From Chromera velia (taxonomy: Eukaryota > Sar > Chromeraceae), in the NCBI GenBank assembly GCA_018398765.1, contig JAHBMJ010001856.1:34653-98652 (forward strand): a stretch of DNA of 64,000 nt, written 5' to 3'. The translations under genes were made by a program, and so were the position numbers. Positions 9,043 to 58,833 of the stretch are shown piece after piece. Numbering within the stretch: position 1 is the first letter of the stretch; every line of letters begins with the position of its first letter. A model generated the notes under the pieces. It worked only from the letters and a program-made list of their open reading frames with translations. It had not been told where the DNA came from and ran no database searches.

Positions 9043-12000
9043 TTACCCACTTTCATTACTTTGCGGTGCTTGTACAAGCCCAACATGTGGCCAAGAGTTT
9101 TGGCCGGAAAACAGAAACGATGCGCCCCCTCCCATCGCAGCTGCTCGTCCCGCAAAAAGGGCTTCCAAAGCAGCAGATGCCTTCACCTTTCCTTTCCTCG
9201 CTTTGGGTGCAGCTGGACGCTTTTCGTCCCCCGACTTCCGCGCTGTGCCGGGGTCTTTGCCGGCCGCGGTGGGCCCAGATGAATCCTTAGGCCCCGACGG
9301 TGGAGGGGGGGCTGGTGGAGGACCTCCACGGGAAGGTGGAGGGGGCGCAGGTGGGGGAGGTTTTGCTGCAGCAGGGGGAGGGGGGGCAGGCGGCACTGCA
9401 GGCTGGGCATGATCAGTTGAGGAAGACGTGCCTCCTCCCATGTCCCCTGCCCTCTGTGCAAAGAGCGCCTCCAAGGCTGCTGATGCCTTAACCTTCCCTG
9501 GCTTCACTTTCGGGACTGAGGCCTCTGGCTTTGGCTGTCGTTTGGCTTGCTTTGCTTGGCTTGGGGGATCGCTGGGTGGTGCTGGGGGAGGGCCAGGGGG
9601 CGGAGGTGCTTTTGGAGCAAGCGGAGGTGCTGGGGGAGGAGAGGCAGGAGCTGCTACTGAGGGAGTAGACGCTGGAGGGGACGTCGTTTTGTTTCCCCCT
9701 CCTCCCATGTCCCCTGCTCTCTGTGCAAAGAGAGCCTCCAACGCTGCCGATGCCTTCACTTTTCCTTTCTTGACCTTTGGCCCGCTCACAGGTTTCGTCG
9801 GCTTTTCTTCTGATGGCTTGGATGCAATGCCAGTGGAAGGGGCACTCGGAGGGGCTCCGGGCGGAGGAGGGGGGGCGGGAGGGGGGGNNNNNNNGGACAG
9901 TGAGGGGGGGGGGGTGCAGGAGCGGCAGGACCTGTGTCGTGGGTGGCGTTCAACATTTTTCCTCTACCTGCAAAGAGGGCCTCAAGCTCTGGGGAACCGG
10001 AGACTTTTCCCTTCTTGACTTTAATCTCTTTCCTCGGTGCTTTTGAGGTTTTCGAACTGTCGCCTCCAACCTTTCCTTTCGCGGGGGGAGGGGGGGGGGC
10101 GGGTGGTTTGGAGTGTCGGTCGGTTTCGGGTTTTTCCTTCTTGAGCGTTTTTGATGTGTCGGCCTTTTCGTCCTTCTCTTTCTCCTTCTCTTCTTCGGGG
10201 GGCTTGTAGCTGCTTGTCTTCTCCAGCCACAGCTTGACGTCTTCGCAAAACTCGACCAGAGTTGGGAGAGCACCCGCACGTGCGTCTCTGTCATTCTGCA
10301 CTCCCAACCAATCGAAAAGTTTCGTGTCTTCTTCTCGACAGTCGGAAAAGAGCGTCTCTATCTCATCGATCAGTTTCTTCCAACTCTCAAGAAACTTTGT
10401 GAAGGTAGAGGCAATCTTTTCGTTTGACGAGGCTGCTTCGTACTGCTCTTTCCAGGTCTCAAAATCTTTGTACAGGGTGTCAATCTTCAACGAACTCTTT
10501 CTTTTCAGGTGAGGCATGTTTGAGTGAAGATCGAGCATGGAGTTTAGCAACTCGCTCCGTGCTGTGTCGTCTTTTTCTTTTGCCTCTTTGGCTTGAGCAT
10601 TCAGCTCTCTGACCAGGACGAAGAGGAGGTTATCACGATTGTGGGGGGGAGAACCTTTGTAGCTGGACATTTTTGTGAGGGTATCGAGGGGAAACACTTT
10701 CCGAAGATCGTTCTTCCGTTTGAAAGCATTCAAATGATTAACTGCCCCCATCGCCAGCTGGAGCCACTCTCGTAGAGCAACAGACCCCCGGATCTCCCCA
10801 ACCGCACTACGAGAAGCTCGAAGCTTCTCAGAAAAGAACTCCCCCTGCTCGTCCAACGTCAATTCCTGTACCTTCACAGCAGCTCTCGCACCTGCGCCTG
10901 GTACCTTGAAGTAAACATGCACTAGGAACCTGTCCACTGCCCCTACTTCCTCCTCGTCTACCCTCCCATCCCCCAGGGCTTCTGCGAGTTTGGCTGCTTT
11001 CTCTGCAGGTGGGGGAACCTCCTGGGCCTCTTCATCGATCCATTTCTTCATCGACTGAATCGATTTGAATTTATCTGCAGGGATCGGGGCGTCTCCCTCT
11101 TCACAGGGTTTTCCCGTCAGAGACGCGACTAGACAGGGCCAGAGGGGCTCGGGCAATTGTCTCGAGAGCATCATCTCAATATTGAACCGGGTTTTCCCAT
11201 TCTTCACCACCCAGTACTGTCTCTCCTCCTCCTCTTTCTTCTCTTTCTCGCTCTTCCCACCCCCACCCGAGCCCGCATTCTTCTTCTGAGAAGGGACGAA
11301 TTTGAAAATCCGACCCAGCTTCGGAATCAGGTCTGCGACAGGAACAAAATCGGGTGTCTCGAAGCACTTCATCTCTCCGAATACCGTCTCCTTCAACCGG
11401 CTCTCTTCCCACTTCTCCTCCTTCTCCTTTCTGTCACTCAGGTAGAAGGGCTTCCCTTGGACGTGCTCGCACATTTCACAATCCTCGACCTGCAGAACCA
11501 AATCGGTGAATATGATCAACCATGTTCATTGTTGAAAGCACAGGAGCGAATTTCTCTGACCACTCACCAGGATGAGAAAGCAAGAAAGACGTACGTCTTG
11601 GATAAGCGAATGACTTCAAATATGAAGAGTTGAACGAGTAAGAAGACACTTCAGACGTCAAAAACCCACTCCCCCTCCCCCCTCCCACACACACTTCCAT
11701 GCGGGATGCCTGCGTCTGCTCCAAGAGACCAGCAAACGAATACTTTGAGAACGGAGAGAGGGACTCGGCGCACGTGAAGGGAAGCTGAAGCTCTCTCTCT
11801 GTATTCGTTCACGCAGACGGACCTCACATAAGAACGGATCCTTTTTCTTTGCCTTTTTCTTCCCGCCCCCCCCGCCCACTTTCTCCTTTCCGTGCTCTAT
11901 GAAATAATCCACTTGGTTCATCTGCCCCTCTGTCAACCCGTTCAACAGCTGCTGCATCTTCAGCATTTTTTTGCACTGATCGGGCTTCTTCCCCATTCGC

Positions 12001-14047
12001 TTGAATGACTCAATCTTCCACTTGACCTCGTCAGGCAAAGGCTCGTAGGGAACGCCTCCTCCCGCGGGCGGCTCGTACTCTTTGTCGTGCTCTATAAAGT
12101 AGTCCACCTGATTCATTTGACCCTCAGACAATCCGTTGAGAAGCTGCTGCATTTTTAACATCTTCTTGCACTGATCAGGTTTCTTTCCCATTCTCTTGAA
12201 GGATTCGATTTTCCATTTGACCTCATCAGGCAGAGGCTCAAAGGGAATACCAGGTCCCTCTTCAGGCGGTTCGTATTCTTTGTCGTGCTCTATGAAATAA
12301 TCCACCTGATTCATTTGGCCCTCCGATAAGCCATTTAGAAGCTGCTGCATCTTCAGCATTTTCTTGCACTGATCAGGTTTCTTTCCCATTCGCTTGAACG
12401 ATTCAATCTTCCATTTGACTTCATCGGGAAGAGGCTCGTACGGAATTCCGGGTGCTTCCTCGGGCGGCTCGTACTCTTTGCCATGCTCTATGAAGTAGTC
12501 TACCTGATTCATTTGGCCCTCAGACAATCCGTTAAGGAGCCGCTGCATTCTCAACATCATTTTGCATTGCTCCGGCTTCTTTCCCATGCGCTTAAACGAT
12601 TCAATTTTCCATTTCACCTCGTCAGGCAGCTCCTCATAAGGTTTGCTCTCCTGGGAAGGGGACGCATTCTTTGATGAAGACGCAGCGGCCTGCTGTTCCT
12701 CCGTTGGTGCGGGTTCTTCTTCTGGTGCTTGCTCTGGGGGGGGGCGCTGTGCTCTCTTTGCAAACAGATCAGCCACGGCGTTGGAAGGGCCCGGTTTTTG
12801 CTCCTGCTGAGTTTCGGCTGGAGAAGACTCTTCACCTGTGCTGGTGGGTGCAGCTGCAGGTGCCCCTCCACCCATGTCAGCGGCCCTCTGTGCGAATAGA
12901 GCCTCCAGAGCCCCCGATGCTTTGACCTTCCCCTTTCGGACTTTGGGGATCTTCGGAGCGGGTTTGGCGGCGCCTCCTGTGTCCTTTGAAGGGGCCACAA
13001 TCGGTCCGGGAGGAGGAGGGGCCGGGGCGGGCGGTGCGGGTGGAGGGGGTGCAGGAGGGGGTGCAGCCGGGACAGCAGGGGGGGCGGCAGCAGGTGCTGC
13101 TGCACCTCCACCCCCCATCTCCCCCGCTCTTTGGGCAAAGAGAGCCTCTAATGCTGCGGACGCTTTCACTTTCCCTGTTTTGACCTTGGGGGGACCTGCA
13201 GCCTTGGGCTTTGCGCTCTCGTCTGGTTGTGAAGGAGGGCCTGGGGGAGGTCCACTGCTGGGCGGAGGGGGGGGTGGGGCGGGAGGGATACCTCCAGGAG
13301 CGGCAGGGGGGGGAGGGGGAGCAGGAGGAACTTTTGCAGGGGGGGGAATAGGTGCGGCAGATGGCGGGGAGGCGGCTGTTGTTTTGGTTTCTCCTCCTCC
13401 CATCTCCCCTGCTCTTTGAGCGAAGAGCGCCTCTAGCGCTGCAGATGCCTTGACTTTTCCTTTTTTTACCTTCGGACCTGAGGCTTCCTTCTCGTCTGGC
13501 TGTGATGAAGGGGTAGTAAAGGGAGGGGATGCGGGAGGTGGGGGCGCAGGGGGGGGTGCAGCAGGTGCTGTTTTGGCGCCTCCCCCCAAGTCTCCTGCTC
13601 TTTGAGCGAAGAGGGCTTCGAGGGCAGCAGACGCTTTGACTTTCCCTGCTTTTGCTTTTGGCACGGGAGCCGCTGGCTTGGATGGGGGCACAGCTTCTCC
13701 GTTGGTCCCTTCGGACGTTCCTGTTTGTGAGCTGGAAGGAGGGGGTGGGGGGGCAGGGGGGGGAGCTGGCACGTTGGATGGCGGGAGGGGAGGGGCAGGG
13801 GGCGGGGGGGCAGGGGGGGCTGGAGCAGGTGTGTCTTTTTTTCCGCCTCCCATGTCCCCTGCCCTCTGTGCGAAGAGCGCCTCTAAGGCTGCAGATGCCT
13901 TGACCTTCCCTGGCTTTGCCTGAGAGCCTCCACTTGGAGCTGAAGAGGGCTGGGGAGAAGGAGGGACGTCTGATTTTGGTGAGTCGGACGGTACGGGGGC
14001 AGGCGCGGGTGACGGCGCAACTTCCGCAGAAATGGGCTTGTTGGGTT
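9043..14047 (-). CDS. Formin (FH2) with FH1 segments and motif repeats on both sides of FH2
   Basis: Formins nucleate and processively elongate actin filaments; FH1 polyproline recruits profilin-actin. Two large exons are visible. The 5' one runs from an acceptor (tgtgcag) at 14047 to a donor near 11823-11828 and encodes five copies of a GKVKASAALEALFAQRAG motif alternating with polyproline, then four about-65-aa repeats. The 3' one starts after ctgcag at 11489 and runs to the stop at 9043. It holds the FH2 domain, including NHLNAFKRKNDLRKVFPLDT (the GN.LN...GF...L zone) and the coiled C-terminal part ending KLFDWLGVQND, then more polyproline and motif copies. A 7-N gap (9888-9894) in a G/C homopolymer causes an apparent frameshift; the downstream frame is open on both sides of it. 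The exact donor, and the connection to the exons upstream of 14047, are unresolved. Confidence 0.85.
9888..9894. other. Assembly gap (7 N) inside formin coding sequence
   Basis: The Ns sit in a run of G (C on the coding strand) encoding polyproline. The frame before the gap (FH2 exon) and the frame after it (three motif copies) differ by one base, so the gap size is probably wrong rather than the gene broken. Confidence 0.9.
11866..12650 (-). repeat. Four tandem about-65-aa repeats in the formin
   Basis: Each unit reads PDEVKWKIESFKRMGKKPxQC, then a KMLKMQxLLNGL stretch and QMNQVDYFIEH, joined by acidic EYEPPEE linkers; spacing is about 195 nt. The first unit (about 12480-12650) is the most diverged; units 2-4 are near identical, which points to recent expansion. 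The predicted structure is helical. I do not recognise the family. Confidence 0.85.
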
Positions 14048-14419
14048 CTGCACATGCACACACGCAGGCATCGATGCAGCAGTGTGTTGACAAGGGCAAG
14101 AGAGTGCATTGATCCGGCCCTTCATTTTCATGAGGTCATCCTTGAAGCTGGACAAGAGAGACAAGATGCGAAAAGAAACGCAGAAAAAAAGAACAGGAGG
14201 AGATCAACTGGAGCAGTGTCACGGCATAAGCGATCCCCGAGGAAGTACAGCATCAGACTGAGGAACCGCGAGGCTAAATGAGAATGGTGTGGACGGAAAC
14301 ACAGTCACCCAACATCTCTCTCTAGTGATTGCTCCAAACGTGAGGTTGCATGCGGCATGGGAAGTATACATGAGGTTGAAGACGAAGGAAGGAAAAAATG
14401 AAACTTGCAATGTTATTGG

Positions 14420-41700: not shown

Positions 41701-43790
41701 AAGAGGGGTTCTACTTCGTCCCCGACGACTCGCAGCCCTCCGACACATACGCATACTGGACACAGGTGGGCAGTCAGCTGAGTCAAAGGACAGACACTGT
41801 GACACCTCACTCAGCTCAGACTACTTTGAAGCGAATTTCGGTGCATACCCGGACGACCGTGAGTCTCCGACGTTTCCTGAGTTTTCCCACCAGAGATTGG
41901 AAAGACTCCACAATGCCATCTCCCGTGTTTGTGTGTGCCTGTCCGAAAATAAATAGCACGCTCACCAGAACTGGCCTAGCTCTGAAAAGAGTTGACGAGG
42001 ATTGATTTCATGTCTGGGGGCCCCTTTTGTTTATCTCCCTTTCTCACGCCTCCTACTCGCCTCCCTCTGCCTTGTCCCCCAGGGCCGGTGCATGCCGTGT
42101 CCCGAGAACGCCGACTGCTTCGGAGAACTCCTCGGAGACGCCACCGCAAAGGATGCCACATCTGCGACTTTGCGGAGACTCCGATATCGAGAATCCTCAG
42201 AGGGCAGCGTGGGAAGCGACAGACAGGACACAACAATGAACGTGACCGACTCAGCGACGCCAATCACAGAGAGAGAGGCTGGATTGGAGGAGGATGCAGA
42301 GTCGGCTTTGCGGGCCCTCCAGACGTCAGACGCAAGCACGCCCAAACTCCAGACGTACTCAGTGGAGCAGCACTCCAGACCGCGACCACAGGACGGGTGT
42401 GTCAACTACGTATGACGGTTGCTTGTTTGCGTTTCGTAGATAGAGACAGAGGCAAGATCGAATGGACGTAGGTGTGCGAGAGAGCGAGGAATGGATTGAG
42501 TTTTCTTCGCTTCTTTCTCCAAAAGACGTGCATGCAGTGGGAGGGAGGGAGCGAAGCGCCGTGTGTGGGAAGAACCACTGACTGAAGAGAGAACCGCGAG
42601 ACATCACAGGCAGCAGCCGTATGACGAGAGAGACCCTTGTGTCTTCTTCCCTGCATTCGAAAATCTCCTTCTTTAATTTCCACACTCCTTCCTTCCTTCC
42701 TTCCTTCCTTCCTTCCCTCCTTCCCTCCCTCCTTCCTTCCTTCCTTCCTTCCTTTCCTCCTTCCTTCCTTCCTTCCTTCCTTCCTTCCCTCCCTCCTTCC
42801 TTCCTTCCTTCCTTCCTTCCCTCCCTCCTTCCTTCCTTCCTTCCTTCCCTCCTTCCTTCCTTCCTTCCCTCCTTCCTTCCTTCCTTCATTCCTTCCTTCC
42901 CTCCTTCCTTCCTTCCCTCCTTCCTTCCTTCCTTCCTTCCTTCCTTCCCTCCTTCCTTCCTTCCTTCCTTCCTTCCCTCCTTCCTTCCTTCCTTCTTTCC
43001 TTCCTTCCCTCCTTCGTTCCTTCCTTCCTTCCCTCCTTCCTTCCTTCCTTCCTTCCTTCCCTCCTTCCTTCCTTCCTTCATTCCTTCCTTCCTTCTCTCC
43101 TTCCTTCCTTCATTCCTTCCTTCCTTCTTTCCTTCCTTCCTTCCTTCCTTCCTTCCCTCCCTCCTTCCTTCCTTCCTTCCTTCCTTCCTTCCCTCCTTCC
43201 TTCCTTCCTTCCTTCCTTCCTTCCCTCCTTCCTTCCTTCCTTTCTTCCTTCCCTCCTTCCTTCCTTCCCTCCTTCCTCCCTTCCCTCCTTCCTTCCTTCC
43301 CTCCTTCCTTCCTTCCATCCTTCCTTCCCTCCCTCCCTCCTTCCTTCCTTCCTTCCTTCCTTCCCTCCTTCCTTCCTTCCTTCCTTCCTTCCCTCCCTCC
43401 TTCCTTCCTTCCTTCCTTCTTCCTTCCTTCCTTCATTCATTCATTCCCTCCTTCCTTCCTTCCTTCCTTCCTTCCTTCCCTCCTTCCTTCCTTCCTTCCT
43501 TCCTTCTCCCTGCAAATTCGATTGCCTCACATTGAATAAATGCAGCTTTGCCCTCATCAAGTCCTACCCTGATGCCATTGTGTTTGAGTGCGAGCTGGAG
43601 GAGGCGTGCGTTCAGACAGACAACCAGACAGTGTATCAAGGAGAAGAGGGCGGCGTCATTTGTGGAGACGGAATGAGAGGGGTCGGTCGGTCGGTCGATA
43701 TTAGTTTGGTCCTTCTGTATGTGTGTGAGTCAACTTGCCGCAGAGCGTCTACGCTTCCCCTACCGCCCTCCTTTCCTCTTGCCGGGACAT

Positions 43791-52240: not shown

Positions 52241-54155
52241 ATTAGTTGATTGAGTGATGCCAAACCCTAGGTGGAGTTTAAACTCCCGGGCGGCGCATTT
52301 ATCTTATATAATTCCTCATAAAACTCAATATTAGATAAACATTCCATTCATTAATGAATCATCAAGTAATTTGCTTTTTTATAGCTACCAGTTTAATATC
52401 ACTACTCATCACAGTGCTTAAGGGTACCAATAAATCACTTATCATTTAATAATCACTTATCATAACTTATCACTAATAATAAAGACTATGTCAATAACTA
52501 GGTCGATGATTGTGATGATAACTATTACTGGCAATTCCCCTATCATACGACTTCCTAAGCATCAATGTTAATCTGTTCATTGTTCATATATTCCTAGCCA
52601 TATTCATGACTTTTAAAATATTTTGTATGTTATAATCTAGGTTATGTTCATGTTTAAAATGTTAACGGTGTTTTAGATATAGAGCCTAGCTAAAAAAAGT
52701 TTGGTTTTATATATATTACACTTTACTGGCTATAGTTTACCAGCGTGATACTTGTAATCTAGCTTATAATGTGGCTCACTTATAGACAACTAGAAATCTG
52801 GCTCAGGTTTTTTGTTAAAGTCTTGAATCTGGGCTCTATGTTAGCCGCTATAATATAGAAACACTGAATTAATGATATGGGCCGTCATAGGGTAAAACAA
52901 TGTTCTTATCAAATTAAACAATTGGCCTCAATTGATTATGATACTAGTTATGGTAATTCGGATCACAATGATGATGACTAGGCTAGTGACTCGGATAATG
53001 ATCGAATCATTTGATGATGTCAGCTAGGTTAAGTCCTATAGATTCAATTGCATTTTTTAAAGCAATTTTCCCGTGTTTTACTTCTCAGTGTGTTTCAAGC
53101 TAGCCTCCAAGTTGTTTTCAACTGTTTTTGTTACTAGTTTTGTTACTTGGTCACAAAATTTTTAGCTAACTAGTTCGCTGATTCACTGATCTACTACTTG
53201 CCCACTCTGAGTCACTCACTCATTCATTCATGCACTCACCCGCGTTTGCCCTAGCTGGGGCCGCTCGCTCATCGATCTACTCTGATCGAAATTAACAGTA
53301 CGACTCAGGTTCATCCATGCATCTTCATCACCGGGCCCTCGTACAAAAACTTTTGGGAATCACACCAACGGTGACTCGCACACATGCATGACAGTTCCCA
53401 CACTGTCCTTGCTTGGAATGACAGTCTTCATGCAAAAAATGACGGCCCCTTGCCTGGACGGGGACAAGTAAGCAAGCAACGTACCAAAAAGGAAGCAAGA
53501 AAACGATCAAGACGTATACGTGAGAATAACACTCAGTCACAATCTCTCTGCATTTCTCCTGAGTTTCCTGCTGTGTCTCTGCTGTCCGACTTTGCCGATG
53601 CCCGACAAGACCAACAGAGGCATTGAACCAACTGGAAGAATTCACTTCCACTCCCTCACAATAGAAAAATCCCACAGGGGAAGGTGTGCTTCACCCCAAT
53701 GTTTTTTCTTATGAATGAAGTAACACATATTTATTCTACACGGCAGCAGCAAACCAGACTGTGTGGTATACCGACATGCAATTCTTTCCTCTTCATCCTT
53801 TTCCAAACAAATCCGCGCCACCGGCCTTCCGTGAACCTGGTTCTTTCTTTTTCAGAGATGAACCAACCGATGGCATTCGATCAGTCGATCCTTTCGGGTC
53901 ACCATCAGTTGACACACGGCGCTTGGAAACGCAAAAACATCTCGTGAAAAAGAAAAACGGAATCTTGATTCCTTCCTCCCCCCCTCCGAATGGCCTCAAA
54001 TTCGCCTCTCCTCATCTGTGACATCTGCATCTCAGCCTCCCTTTCGTCACTCCCCTCATCTTCTTGACAGACAGGCCACCTGCTTCTTTCTCTTCGCTCC
54101 TTCTCTTCATGTACGTCAGCAAGACAGATAGACACGCAGACACACAGACAGGCAG
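51738..54155. other. Intergenic region between the giant gene and the 4-TM gene
   Basis: 3' flank of the giant gene, then (GATT)n at 52197-52250, a GC-rich palindromic motif (52256-52297) and an AT-rich island to about 53200. 53300-54150 is of ordinary composition without a supported frame; it probably includes the 3' UTR of the convergent 4-TM gene. Confidence 0.6.
52256..52297. repeat. Palindromic GC-rich motif of a candidate repeat family, copy A
   Basis: GATGCCAAACCCTAGG, then GTGGAGTTTAAACTCC, then CGGGCGGCGCA. It is preceded by (GATT)n and followed by an AT-rich island. Its reverse complement closely matches 58834-58875. Confidence 0.6.
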
Positions 54156-54950
54156 TCAGACTGGAGGAGCATTATCAGAAGGAGCAGCAAGGGGAGCCGA
54201 GGGGACGGCCACGAGGGGGATCTGCCGGGGGTCGGTGGGTGTGCGCAGAGGCCGTCGGTCTGCCTCGGAGTCGGACTCCCCCCCTGTGACCTGTCTGTAC
54301 CCCGAGTATTTGGCCTTCAGGCTCCAGGCAATGTAAACAAGGTAGAAACTGTTCAACAGGTTGAGAACCAACGCAACCGGAAGGTAAAACTCATACACCA
54401 GGTGAATGCCTCTCTTCAAAAGCGACTTGAAATCTTCGTTTTGCCACATCTCAGCACTTTGTTCAAGTCGTGCCGCCTCTTCTTCGCGTCCCTCGGCAAT
54501 CAGGCGCTCTCTTTCCTTCTCAAGTTGTTCGGGCACAACTTCGGAGAGCTTCTCCACCATGGGGTTGATCGCCTTGGACACCATAGGCAAAAAGACGAAG
54601 TAGACGACCACTCCAACGAGAAGCACTGTGGCAGAGACCGTCAGAAGAGCATACAGAACTGTCGCAGTCTTGGGGTTCTTCTTGGAGACAGTATACATGG
54701 CACACACACCGGTGGCCAGAGTGAAGAACGATAAAGAGAGTCTGAGGTAGTCCACCTGCCCGGAGACGGCAGCCGCAAACCCGAGCATTGACCAAATCAC
54801 CTGCCACACTCCCAAGGCACAGACTCCGGCATCTAGTGGGAACCAACAGCAGGGATAAAGACAGCAGCACGGAAAACAGCAGCACTTTGTGGCGACTGGG
54901 GCACCAAGAAAGGTGCGCGGTCTCGAGTTGCTCGAGTTCGGGTTTTCCAT
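54156..54950 (-). CDS. Four-TM membrane protein with Cys cluster, 264 aa, single exon
   Basis: I chose ATG at 54950 (MENPNSSNSRP) because upstream in-frame sequence looks like leader; the frame stays open to 55130. The N-terminus has CCCFPCCCLYPCCW, a cluster typical of palmitoylated or membrane-embedded Cys. Four hydrophobic segments follow: CALGVWQVIWSMLGFAAAV, YLRLSLSFFTLATGVCAMY, VLYALLTVSATVLLVGVVVYF and YLPVALVLNLLNSFYLVYIA. An amphipathic charged loop (residues about 145-200, QLEKERERLIAEGREEEAAR) lies between TM3 and TM4, and the tail is polar. I do not recognise a family. It is divergent from the uricase-hemerythrin gene. Confidence 0.82.
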   Translation of the reverse strand: MENPNSSNSRPRTFLGAPVATKCCCFPCCCLYPCCWFPLDAGVCALGVWQVIWSMLGFAAAVSGQVDYLRLSLSFFTLATGVCAMYTVSKKNPKTATVLYALLTVSATVLLVGVVVYFVFLPMVSKAINPMVEKLSEVVPEQLEKERERLIAEGREEEAARLEQSAEMWQNEDFKSLLKRGIHLVYEFYLPVALVLNLLNSFYLVYIAWSLKAKYSGYRQVTGGESDSEADRRPLRTPTDPRQIPLVAVPSAPLAAPSDNAPPV

Positions 54951-55464
54951 TCTTAAGTCCACGTCGGTATCAAGGCAGACTGACAGATGGCAACCACTCT
55001 TGTTCGATCGGAAGGACTGCGCACACTTAGACGATTCGAAGCCGACGGCTGTACAGAAGGACACTCGTCTTCCTTGATATAATGCAGGGGCACTTTGGGA
55101 GTCCTGCAAATCCATCGATCTGCATGACAATGATGTCCCGGCCGTCTACATGCTTCGTGTGCGTGCATGGCTAGCATATGGCTAGCTGCGCGCTGCGATC
55201 CCGAGCTACGCCGAGCTATATGCATGCATGCCGCGAATTGCCGCGAGCTATGCCGAGATATGCATGCCGATCGAGGCCGAGCTCACAGTGTTGGCAGGTG
55301 TCTCACTGTCACAAACACATTGAAACACAACTTTTTAAAAATCATTCGCGCTCCCGCCTATTTTGTAGAGAGGTCCCACATGTTTGAATCCAAGTCTCCC
55401 TGCTGTCCCAAGAAGGAAGGCATAGTACAGACTGCTGTCAGGGGTGCTTCAAGAGGAAGGCAAG
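54951..55464. promoter_or_regulatory. Divergent promoter region, 4-TM gene / uricase-hemerythrin gene
   Basis: About 515 bp between the two start codons. It holds TGCATGCA at 55221-55228 and several related GCATGC/TGCATG and AGCTATGCCGAG-type short repeats at 55170-55270. Shared control is inferred. Confidence 0.5.
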
Positions 55465-56982
55465 ATGCCATCCTTCATGATCAGCAACAGCTACGGGCAC
55501 GCGGATGTCCGTCTCCACCTTGCGCTGCGCCCCACGTCCGAAAATACTGACCAAGCAGGCAGATCGCCTGACTACTCCCACTGGTACCGCAGTCTGAGGG
55601 TGCATGTGGAGCTGAAGGGGGATTTTGCGGCGTCATACGTCGCAGGTAACAACACTCTTCTGATTCCCACTGACACAATCAAGAATATTACTCAGCATGT
55701 GGTGTTTTCCAGCCACGCACCCACACAGACAGATGGGGCACAGCAGAAAGAGGAACAGAGACGGAGACGGCCGTCTCTGGAGGTTCTCGGGAATGAAGTG
55801 GGGTCCGTTCTTCTCCGCAGATACTCCCACGTCTCCGTAGCAAAGGTGCGACTGGAGGAGACTCCGTACGCTCATGCCTCCTCCTCCTGTTCCACTGCAT
55901 GGAGTGCCGTGGCCCCTGAAAGTTCAGACACGAAAGGGGTGGAGTCTGCAGCTCTGTCTAGCTGTTTTCTCCCATCGCCAGGCCACGGTACTTTTTTCGC
56001 TGAGGTGGTTCTGAATCGTGGGGGTACAACGAATGTGACGTCAGGGGTGATGGGACTCCAACTTGTGCGGACCGCCAGGGGTGCGGCCTTTTCGAAATTT
56101 CTGAAAGACTCGGACGGTTTTACGACTTTAGATGAGAAGGAGGATGTGGGGGTGATGAGTGTGGAAGTTGACCTGGAGTGGGATTTCTTCTCGAACCCCC
56201 TCCTTGACTTGAAGAACGGAAGTTGTGAGGGGGACCTTGAGGGTCAGGTCACGCTGCCGTTGCGACAGGCAGCCGTGCTCACTTTCTCCACACACGCGTC
56301 CCGGAGCCTGCAGCACACATGCCTTGCAATAGGGAAGGCAGTGGTGGGTGCTTCAGAGGAGGTGAAGGAAGCCAGGGTACTTCTCCGCAAGCGCCCTCTG
56401 TTGGGAGGGCCGAGAGGGGTCGGACAGAGTGAGGGGGGGAAGGAAGAATTGATCTGCGGTCTGCCTGGTCCTGGCGGCAGGGCAGAGGTTCGGTGTGCTG
56501 TGCGTCGGACTCACGTTGAGATTCCGTCTCCGTTTGTTTGGAATGCCGAAATGTTTGACTGCAAAGAGGACACGATCAACGAACAGCACGCAGCTCTTTT
56601 TGATCTGATCAGAGAATTGGACGATATCCGGTCGGCAGCTCAGAGCAAGAGACTGCTGCCTCTGATTGTCGAACACGCTCTGCAGCATTTTGAAGATGAA
56701 GAGAAGATTTTTGAAGAGCATGGGTATGCTGAAAAGAAAGCAGATATGCATGCGCAGATTCACAAGAAATTCGCAGAAAGTGCACAGAAGGCTGCAGCTC
56801 CTTTTTTGAAGGGAGAAGGCAAAGCGGTCGAAGATCAGCTTGTGCTCTTTCTCAAAAAGTGGCTGGTCGAGCATGTGTGCGGCCCCGACATGCAGTTTGC
56901 GCGGTTTCTTGAAAAGAAACAGAAAGCGGCTGGAAGTGGGGGAGAGCAGAGAAGAGAGAAGGGTCAGAGAAGCCGACTCTAA
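55465..56982 (+). CDS. Uricase-like domain fused to a bacteriohemerythrin-type domain, 505 aa, C-terminal SRL
   Basis: Residues about 8-355 follow the urate oxidase tandem T-fold: SNSYGHADVRL, LKGDFAASYVAGNNTLLIPT and DTIKN, then VTSGVMGLQLVRTARGAAF, FTTLDEKED and THASRSLQHTCLAIGKAV. Uricase oxidises urate with O2 to 5-hydroxyisourate and H2O2. T69 and Q283 match the catalytic Thr and urate-binding Gln, but the catalytic Lys (YGK) is H12, the urate-binding Arg after ETxD is V228, and NKH is RKR at 308-310, so ordinary activity is doubtful. Residues about 360-482 are hemerythrin-like with all seven diiron ligands: H375, H408, E412, H429, H433, H470 and D475. The C-terminus SRL is a PTS1 peroxisomal signal. 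No introns interrupt the frame. ATG 55465 is the first in-frame ATG. Confidence 0.88.
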   Translation: MPSFMISNSYGHADVRLHLALRPTSENTDQAGRSPDYSHWYRSLRVHVELKGDFAASYVAGNNTLLIPTDTIKNITQHVVFSSHAPTQTDGAQQKEEQRRRRPSLEVLGNEVGSVLLRRYSHVSVAKVRLEETPYAHASSSCSTAWSAVAPESSDTKGVESAALSSCFLPSPGHGTFFAEVVLNRGGTTNVTSGVMGLQLVRTARGAAFSKFLKDSDGFTTLDEKEDVGVMSVEVDLEWDFFSNPLLDLKNGSCEGDLEGQVTLPLRQAAVLTFSTHASRSLQHTCLAIGKAVVGASEEVKEARVLLRKRPLLGGPRGVGQSEGGKEELICGLPGPGGRAEVRCAVRRTHVEIPSPFVWNAEMFDCKEDTINEQHAALFDLIRELDDIRSAAQSKRLLPLIVEHALQHFEDEEKIFEEHGYAEKKADMHAQIHKKFAESAQKAAAPFLKGEGKAVEDQLVLFLKKWLVEHVCGPDMQFARFLEKKQKAAGSGGEQRREKGQRSRL

Positions 56983-57393
56983 TTCGATCTTGCCTTGCAG
57001 TCAGAGAAGGGGGATCGTACAAGTGCGTTTTTGTCGCAGTCTAGGCAGCATTTGTTTCCTTTCTTTTTTACTTTTCTTACATGGATGTGCTCTTCCGTTG
57101 GCCACTGAGTACAGAAACAGGCAGTGAAGAGATTGACAGACAGAGAGACAAGAATGGATGGAGTCGATTCTGCATGCATTGGAGTCCTCAAAGAAAGGAG
57201 ACTTCTGTCTCTTGTGTCGGCAGTCAATCCCTGCTTCCCCCCTTTCCCAAACGCAGCCTCTTTGTCAGTTTTGCCTCTGGTCCGGTTGTTCTTTGTGTGT
57301 GCGGCGGCTTTTGTTCAATGCAATAGGTTTTTTTGCCTGCTGATCGAACCACCGAGAGAGAAACGGATGGATCGACAAATCGATAAAAAAAGG

Positions 57394-57482
57394 AGAGATG
57401 CAAAGAGGGTTCCGTTCCGTCTGGGTCAATGCCCATTGAGAGATGCAAAGAGGGTTCCGTTCCGTCTGGGTCAATGCCCATT
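57394..57482. repeat. Perfect 45-bp tandem duplication
   Basis: The unit beginning AGAGATGCAAAGAGG and ending GGGTCAATGCCCATT occurs at 57394 and again at 57439 with no visible mismatch until the end of the second copy. Confidence 0.92.
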
Positions 57483-58833
57483 CTCTTTTCCCTTAGGGGC
57501 GACTCGGTTCTCGCTCTGTTTGCCGAGCAATCATTAAATGGATGGATGACAGCCTGGAAGTCCGCATGCACAGTTTCCTTTAAGGGACGGGAGCCTTGGT
57601 GGGAGGGAGGCCAGTCAGTCAGCTCGTGCAGTCAGCAGGTCGAGTTTCATCTTCAGACTTCCGTTGATAGTATTCGTGTGCATGTGCATCAGTCTGACAG
57701 GTACTTAGTTTTGATCTGGGTTTTCAAGTTGATCTTCTTGTTTGTGCAGCTTTCACCTTTCTGTGAATCAATGGTGACACGTCGACTTGAACGTCGATCA
57801 TCAAAAGTCAAGACTCGCCGTTGCGATGAAGCGCGGTTGACTGTTTCTTTTACGCGAGATTTAACGAGAATTCATGTGGTCCCGATTTTCAGAAGAAGAA
57901 AACAAAATTTTTTTATTGTTTGCCCTCCCTGTGTATTTTCGGCCTGCTTCCTGCAAAAGCCCTGCTTTGCTCTAGAGTGGCGACTGGTGGTGCTCGCTCT
58001 GGCAAACCATGCACACCGTTCCCGCTGCAATGCTGCGTGCCTGGAAGGGAAACAGTGGTCCAGAGTTTTCGAGAGCCTCCTTGTGGCTACTTCGTTGGGC
58101 TGGTCTGGATTTTGTTTGTTCGTTGGGGGTGGGAGTGCCGCAACACCCTGGCACCAGCGGGCAGCAGCGACGGAGAGTTTAAGGCATCGGCTCTCTCTTC
58201 TTTAAGGGCAGAGCTAGACATGCAGTTGCGGAAGAGGTCTGCACGCGGCGGGCGGGGGCTATCGCTTCTTCACATTTCCCTCCTCTTGCCAAGCTCACCC
58301 CCCTTCAACAAGCTTTTCCCTCCTCTCATCGTATGTTTGTGTTTCTTCTTTGCAACAAATCCGCCTCTGGTCTCTACTCGTTTTCCGCCCTCCCTCGATC
58401 TGCTCTCACAGTAACCGACGGCTCTCTGTTCGGTTTCTTACGTCTGCTCTCATTTAACCCACAAGGCGAAAGCAGTGCTCTGTCTGTTGAACTTGAATGT
58501 AGCGACCACAAACTCTGTGTACATGACTCTTGTATTCGGTGTGTTGATGACTTCATGCATAGACTTTCTTCATGTGCCAAGTGGCTGGATGAAAGAGAAT
58601 TTCAGAACTTTTCAATTTCTGCACTGCCTGGCTGAGCTAGAATCCATTAATTCGAATGATTGTAACTGTCCACTCCCCGGTGCAAGTACATCTGAACTCT
58701 TCATCCGTAATGTCATTCGATCGCTTCTACGCTCGCATCCGGTCTGTCTCTTTGGTGCCTGTCTCCCTATTCTAGAAAGTGATTAACTGATCAACTCCAC
58801 CGGCGACTTAACAAACAACAACCATGCATGTAT

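Follow-up and report, generated by a model that had tools for sequence, protein, structure and literature searches.

A uricase-fold/hemerythrin fusion gene with a peroxisome-type C-terminus in Chromera velia

Introduction

In uricase (urate oxidase), the Thr-Asp loop reaches into the active site of the neighbouring subunit. Active-site residues are numbered here as in the A. flavus enzyme. The ligand is bound by Thr57, Asp58, Arg176, Val227 and Gln228; the active site is formed at the interface of two protomers, one supplying Thr57 and the other Asn254, which hold the catalytic water; and the Lys10-Thr57 dyad helps in the proton relay, Lys10 being hydrogen-bonded to His256 (PMC7792999).

For hemerythrins, a survey of the family (PMC4919030) lists functions that include oxygen supply to particular enzymes or pathways, assigned to aerobic and facultative species, and protection from oxidative damage, in anaerobic and microaerophilic organisms. 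The same survey counts 56 architectures; signalling modules are the commonest identified partner domains, and 56.9% of the long sequences lack any Pfam partner. Among eukaryotes, hemerythrins without introns are described in one apicomplexan and in Naegleria (PMC2556348), and a protist hemerythrin with a stated location, that of Naegleria gruberi, is cytosolic (PMC8134430). In the literature found on hemerythrin together with peroxisomal targeting, hemerythrin is used as a cytosolic marker (PMC8134430), and elsewhere the word occurs in a table.

The initial annotation of the locus considered here had stated that no described uricase-hemerythrin fusion was known to it, and this holds within the literature searched, where uricase and hemerythrin were queried jointly with fusion and no prior description was found. 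The words uricase and urate are absent from the main text of the hemerythrin survey (PMC4919030), and a full-text literature search returned no report of a hemerythrin in Chromera. Here we describe such a fusion in a stretch of 64,000 nucleotides of Chromera velia DNA (hereafter, the window) and consider what its product might do.

Results

A single frame encoding both domains

The fusion gene occupies positions 55465..56982 of the window (forward strand): 505 codons run without interruption to a TAA stop, no intron is apparent, and the stretch 54000-58000 around the gene contains no N. Given the stop-codon frequency of the window, chance would yield approximately 0.001 frames of this length over the two strands of 64 kb, a figure that leaves both profile matches uncounted. 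The product matches the Pfam model Uricase PF01014 in two stretches (E = 2e-12; 48.1 bits, cut-off 25) and the model Hemerythrin PF01814 at residues 369-478 (E = 5.1e-9; 37.1 bits, cut-off 25.3). Among the NCBIfam models, the score exceeds the cut-off for the hemerythrin domain TIGR02481 (80.4 bits vs 51.75) and lies below both the equivalog cut-off for urate oxidase TIGR03383 (E = 3.5e-27; 95.5 bits vs 168.4) and the cut-off for the bacteriohemerythrin subfamily NF033749 (76.3 bits vs 84). When the whole fusion was compared with solved structures by phmmer, the 33 distinct sequences found were hemerythrins (DcrH, bacteriohemerythrin, myohemerythrin) and uricases, and the uricase part alone retrieved 24 sequences, whose names are uricase, urate oxidase, uric acid oxidase or uric acid degradation protein.

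The existence of a uricase-family/hemerythrin fusion in the DNA is thus confirmed. The earlier reading of one frame uniting a uricase-like region and a hemerythrin is borne out by the 505 open codons and by both profiles, and the expected pattern, Uricase twice plus Hemerythrin, was obtained, both models being above the Pfam cut-off. Bacterial contamination was ruled out, because the window also encodes FH2 (formin), KH and RCC1 frames and the assembly comprises 178 Mb.

The window has further features of its own. Positions 9789-14099 on the reverse strand hold the frame with the FH2 (formin) domain and, adjoining it, a frame rich in proline, which contains repeated KVKASAALEALFAQRAG units as well as four LPDEVKWKIESFKRMGKKP repeats that are nearly identical. 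A long simple-repeat tract at 42359-43539 is open in several frames, with GRKE- or LPSF-type repeats. Upstream of the fusion gene and on the opposite strand (54156-55130) there is a 324-residue frame with hydrophobic segments and a weak match to 7tm_7, under the cut-off; downstream of the gene, at 57397-57482, two copies of a 41-base stretch beginning GATGCAAAGAGGGTTCCG, four bases apart, were seen by eye.

A hemerythrin domain with the full set of ligands

Profiles and alignment place the hemerythrin domain at residues 356-485 (56530..56919, forward strand). Its seven diiron ligands are H375, H408, E412, H429, H433, H470 and D475, and the pattern H...HxxxE...HxxxH...HxxxxD (five His, one Glu, one Asp) is complete, so the canonical spacing proposed in the initial annotation is found at every position, also on alignment with bacteriohemerythrins. 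We compared the domain with eight bacterial and archaeal hemerythrins taken from plasmid records (25-35% identity): the H-H-E-H-H-H-D set is identical in seven of them, the eighth having His for the last Asp. A predicted hemerythrin of the O2-binding ligand type is supported by these residues. In the whole assembly two hemerythrin models matched the fusion alone, in a search that ignores introns and scores the best candidates.

A uricase-like region with a partly lost active site

The uricase-homologous region comprises residues 1-305 (55465..56379, forward strand); a profile built from eleven uricase references matches residues 5-305 and ends ahead of the Asn254/His256 loop. Two alignments were used. 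The first compares residues 1-355 of the fusion with eight plasmid-borne prokaryotic uricases, and the second includes eleven references, namely the same eight, two genomic uricase loci and this assembly's own canonical uricase; without two PucL-type sequences, these give nine core references. Relative to the other aligned uricases the fusion has two insertions, at approximately residues 87-105 and 138-165, and it is 22-27% identical to the uricases of the eleven-reference alignment and 25-31% identical to a set of 61 sequences. In shuffle tests, the five upstream uricase segments gave z from 6.2 to 13.4, with 0 of 1000 shuffles as good for each, and the best-preserved of them, residues 44-84 (z = 13.4), holds T69-D70. 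Judging by profile similarity, this part would adopt the uricase fold.

Among alignment columns occupied by eight or more residues, 36 are invariant in the nine core uricases; 20 of them are conserved in the fusion, including T69-D70 (55669..55674), equivalent to Thr57-Asp58, and Q283 (56311..56313), equivalent to the urate-binding Gln228. The Phe159 position is occupied by Phe. At the position of the catalytic Lys10, which is Lys in all nine core references, the fusion has H12 (55498..55500), and hence the Lys10-Thr57 dyad is incomplete, T69 being kept and the Lys replaced. The Arg176 position is Arg in nine of nine core references (the Arg of the canonical gene was entered as typed residues); where this urate-binding residue is expected, both alignments place V228-G229 (56146..56151), so that of the urate-binding pair the Gln228 equivalent is present and the Arg176 equivalent absent. 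Finally, the P-N-x-H catalytic loop with Asn254 and His256, whose P, N and H occur in 9/9 core references, is replaced by R308-K309-R310-P311 (56386..56397). All these codons are on the forward strand.

Residues hidden by the choice of frame were ruled out: when all three forward frames were read near the start, near the Arg position and across the join, no P-N-x-H loop appeared, and around the Arg position both alternative frames are interrupted by stops. By the mechanism described in PMC7792999, a protein with this set of residues should not oxidise urate.

A search of the assembly with the Pfam uricase model gave four matches, three on another contig (C717) and one to the gene in the window. 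On the C717 stretch, tblastn with five bacterial uricases found eight pieces, which lie in order on a single strand; this canonical uricase is intron-split, in at least eight pieces. The well-supported pieces read Q-Y-G-K with P-T-D-T, T-T-Q-S-G-F, S-V-Q-E-T with L-P-N-I-H-H-F, and F-G-I-E-N-D. The second and third pieces are weak (best E = 0.001 and E = 0.044, respectively), as is the Arg176 piece R-E-R-I-F taken alone (E = 0.038), and the last exon is a weak match (E = 3.2) found by one of the five queries. This exon reads G-L-I-K-C-S-V-S-R-G-D-A-R-S-R-L-stop, is preceded by CAG, and ends in SRL, the sole PTS1-like ending that the stretch has in any of the three forward frames on that strand. 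With one exon missing from its sequence, the canonical uricase shares 38-44% identity with the eight core bacterial references, vs 24-27% for the fusion. As predicted from its pieces, it keeps the positions lost in the fusion, the Arg and the SRL depending on weak pieces and on their order.

The initial annotation suggested an active bifunctional enzyme, whose uricase part oxidises urate while the hemerythrin supplies O2 in cis. This would agree with the uricase homology in two stretches, with the retained Thr57, Asp58 and Gln228 equivalents and the Phe at the Phe159 position, and with the peroxisome-type tag at the C-terminus. However, the Lys10, Arg176, Asn254 and His256 equivalents are replaced, the score is below the urate oxidase equivalog cut-off, the profile match stops before the Asn254/His256 loop, and the C717 gene has the missing residues. 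As the equivalents of these four residues are lost, an active uricase is therefore rejected as the main reading, and we regard it as very improbable. Since a separate uricase with the active-site residues is encoded on C717, the fusion is unneeded as the enzyme.

The segment between the domains

Recognisable uricase sequence stops at residue 305, and the join that follows (residues 306-355; 56380..56529, forward strand) is poorly conserved; by coding score, profile and shuffles it retains no more than a faint trace of the C-terminal part of uricase. Taken alone, residues 296-352 were not reported by the eleven-reference uricase profile, though some shuffles were, and for residues 308-348 in global alignment 12 of 2000 shuffles were as good (z = 3.0), far below the upstream segments. 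The coding score, trained on one formin frame and six uricase pieces, is -0.03 for the join in frame vs 0.10 in the next frame. Elsewhere it is best in frame for residues 106-305 (0.12) and for the hemerythrin (0.36), and it equals -0.03 for residues 1-81; the statistic is generally weak, since the score of the 3' flank (-0.01) is no lower than that of residues 1-81.

An intron within the join is possible. If the locus comprised two genes, one for a uricase remnant and another for a hemerythrin, or a single gene with the join partly spliced out, this would account for the weak coding score and little homology of residues 306-355; a scan of nine hexamers, with donors scored alone, also found two donor-like hexamers within the frame, at 56225 and 56429. 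On the other hand, the frame is open throughout the join, which by the above estimate is not expected by chance (~0.001 such frames), and a gene consisting of the upstream part would encode a truncated uricase. We consider such an arrangement quite unlikely.

Retroposition of the canonical uricase was considered as the origin of the fusion, because no intron is apparent in the fusion gene. A copy of a uricase gene, fused to a hemerythrin, might also be decaying, that is, drifting without function. The lack of an apparent intron, compared to at least eight pieces in the canonical gene, the low identity to all compared uricases and the active-site loss would be in line with decay, but 505 codons have no stop, and the hemerythrin ligands and the C-terminal tag are intact, which makes it decidedly unlikely in our opinion.

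The C-terminal ending

Peroxisomal targeting signals of the PTS1 type have the C-terminal motif [SAC][KRH][LM]. The fusion protein ends in -RSRL and matches this motif, the S-R-L being encoded at 56971..56979 (forward strand); this ending went unmentioned in the initial annotation. In the six frames of the window, endings of this type precede 15 of 3436 stop codons, and five of them, with that of the fusion included, are SRL; its occurrence by chance is possible but unlikely. The peroxisome, which had been proposed as the site, is likely, given the SRL at the C-terminus of the fusion, an ending shared with the last exon predicted for the canonical uricase. The assembly also has matches to the Pex2/Pex12-family, transthyretin-family (HIU hydrolase) and OHCU decarboxylase models. 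In a table of PMC6320678, urate oxidase and xanthine dehydrogenase are marked present in the first four columns, which by the order of the legend would include Vitrella and Chromera.

Distribution of related sequences

For the whole fusion, we observed no pattern match in the collection viral_contigs and 38 pattern matches with zero relatives in genome_contigs, both searched with short exact peptide patterns, which are insensitive. Nine plasmid records were found, 0 of them covering 80% of the query, and in its own assembly the fusion matched itself alone. The hemerythrin part had matches in three phage and 33 plasmid records; three plasmid records compared with the whole fusion all matched it, solely from residue 341 onwards. 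Two single hemerythrins found no relative in viral_contigs.

We also scanned the six frames of 80 uricase loci, with flanks of up to 1.5 kb, using a hemerythrin profile whose source alignment included the fusion. The profile reported the fusion and none of the 80 loci, which are the best 80 of 589 relatives, carry actinobacterial names and hence form a narrow sample. A pucL gene from a Deinococcus aquaticus plasmid is 1479 bases long, longer than uricase alone, which suggests an extra N-terminal part.

Discussion

The fused frame, the intact diiron ligands, the loss of catalytic residues, the presence of a separate gene for uricase and the C-terminal SRL are best explained, with a probability of roughly one half, by a peroxisomal O2-binding hemerythrin on a non-catalytic uricase-fold scaffold, storing, buffering or delivering O2. 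The uricase part, of the tunnelling fold, would no longer oxidise urate and would be retained as a structural or docking module, which might form an oligomer of its own or join the oligomers of the canonical uricase. The diiron site of the hemerythrin would bind O2 reversibly, and the fusion could then store, buffer or deliver O2 in the peroxisome, beside O2-consuming, H2O2-producing oxidases. Storage or delivery of O2 is suggested by the ligand set and by known roles of hemerythrins (PMC4919030). We infer that the gene is transcribed and that its product folds, oligomerises, is imported into peroxisomes and binds O2; any partner of the fusion would likewise be a matter of prediction.

A peroxisomal hemerythrin of the same anatomy, on the same uricase-derived scaffold, might handle peroxide, nitric oxide or iron and not supply O2; uricase makes H2O2, which would suit such a role. 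Protection from oxidative damage is listed for hemerythrins of anaerobic and microaerophilic organisms, but O2 supply is the function assigned to aerobic and facultative species (PMC4919030). No finding favours the peroxide, nitric oxide or iron role over O2 handling, and we regard this role as unlikely.

Docking of the fusion on the canonical uricase, or mixed assembly with it, may possibly occur, and the presence of the Thr-Asp loop in the best-preserved segment fits this. Since Thr57 and Asn254 belong to different protomers (PMC7792999), a partner without one half could still complete mixed sites. Such a two-subunit urate oxidase would take the half with Arg176, Asn254 and His256 from the canonical uricase, and the Thr-Asp loop, together with an O2-loading hemerythrin, from the fusion. 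Against it, the Lys that partners Thr57 is His in the fusion, and the loss of this residue from the Thr-Asp side of the site makes fully active mixed sites less likely; we therefore think a two-subunit enzyme unlikely. If it were real, the fusion would serve a cofactor-free oxidase as its O2-delivery subunit.

If the preferred reading, a peroxisomal hemerythrin on a retired uricase, is true, it would represent a new eukaryotic way of managing O2 in the peroxisome, and would show an enzyme fold put to use as a carrier once catalysis was lost.

Comparison with known systems

The hemerythrin of Naegleria gruberi (PMC8134430) is, like the fusion, a protist hemerythrin, but it serves as a cytosolic marker, and uricase and urate are absent from the main text of that paper. 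The hemerythrin-like protein of the dinoflagellate Symbiodinium microadriaticum (PMC8070245), likened here by its description, represents the hemerythrin superfamily in an alveolate, as the fusion does; it differs in that uricase is unmentioned in the main text.

With the bacteriohemerythrins and other O2-binding hemerythrins (TIGR02481, NF033749; the DcrH domain, Bacteriohemerythrin 4xpx) the fusion shares all seven ligands. Its hemerythrin is also C-terminal in a longer protein, an arrangement for which PMC4919030 counts 117 cases vs 52 N-terminal ones. In contrast, its partner is a uricase fold, whereas chemotaxis and GGDEF modules are the most frequent partners in the passages of that survey; the fusion also has a PTS1-type ending, is a eukaryotic gene and scores below the subfamily cut-off.

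The A. flavus urate oxidase (PF01014, TIGR03383) is resembled in the two uricase-profile stretches, in the region of the P-T-D-T-x-K-N motif, in the Gln228 equivalent and in the Phe at the Phe159 position. Unlike a urate oxidase, the fusion has the Lys10, Arg176, Asn254 and His256 equivalents replaced, scores below the equivalog cut-off, has a C-terminal part of the uricase region that is not recognised by the profile, and carries a hemerythrin. The canonical uricase of this assembly shares one more trait with the fusion: its predicted last exon also ends in SRL.
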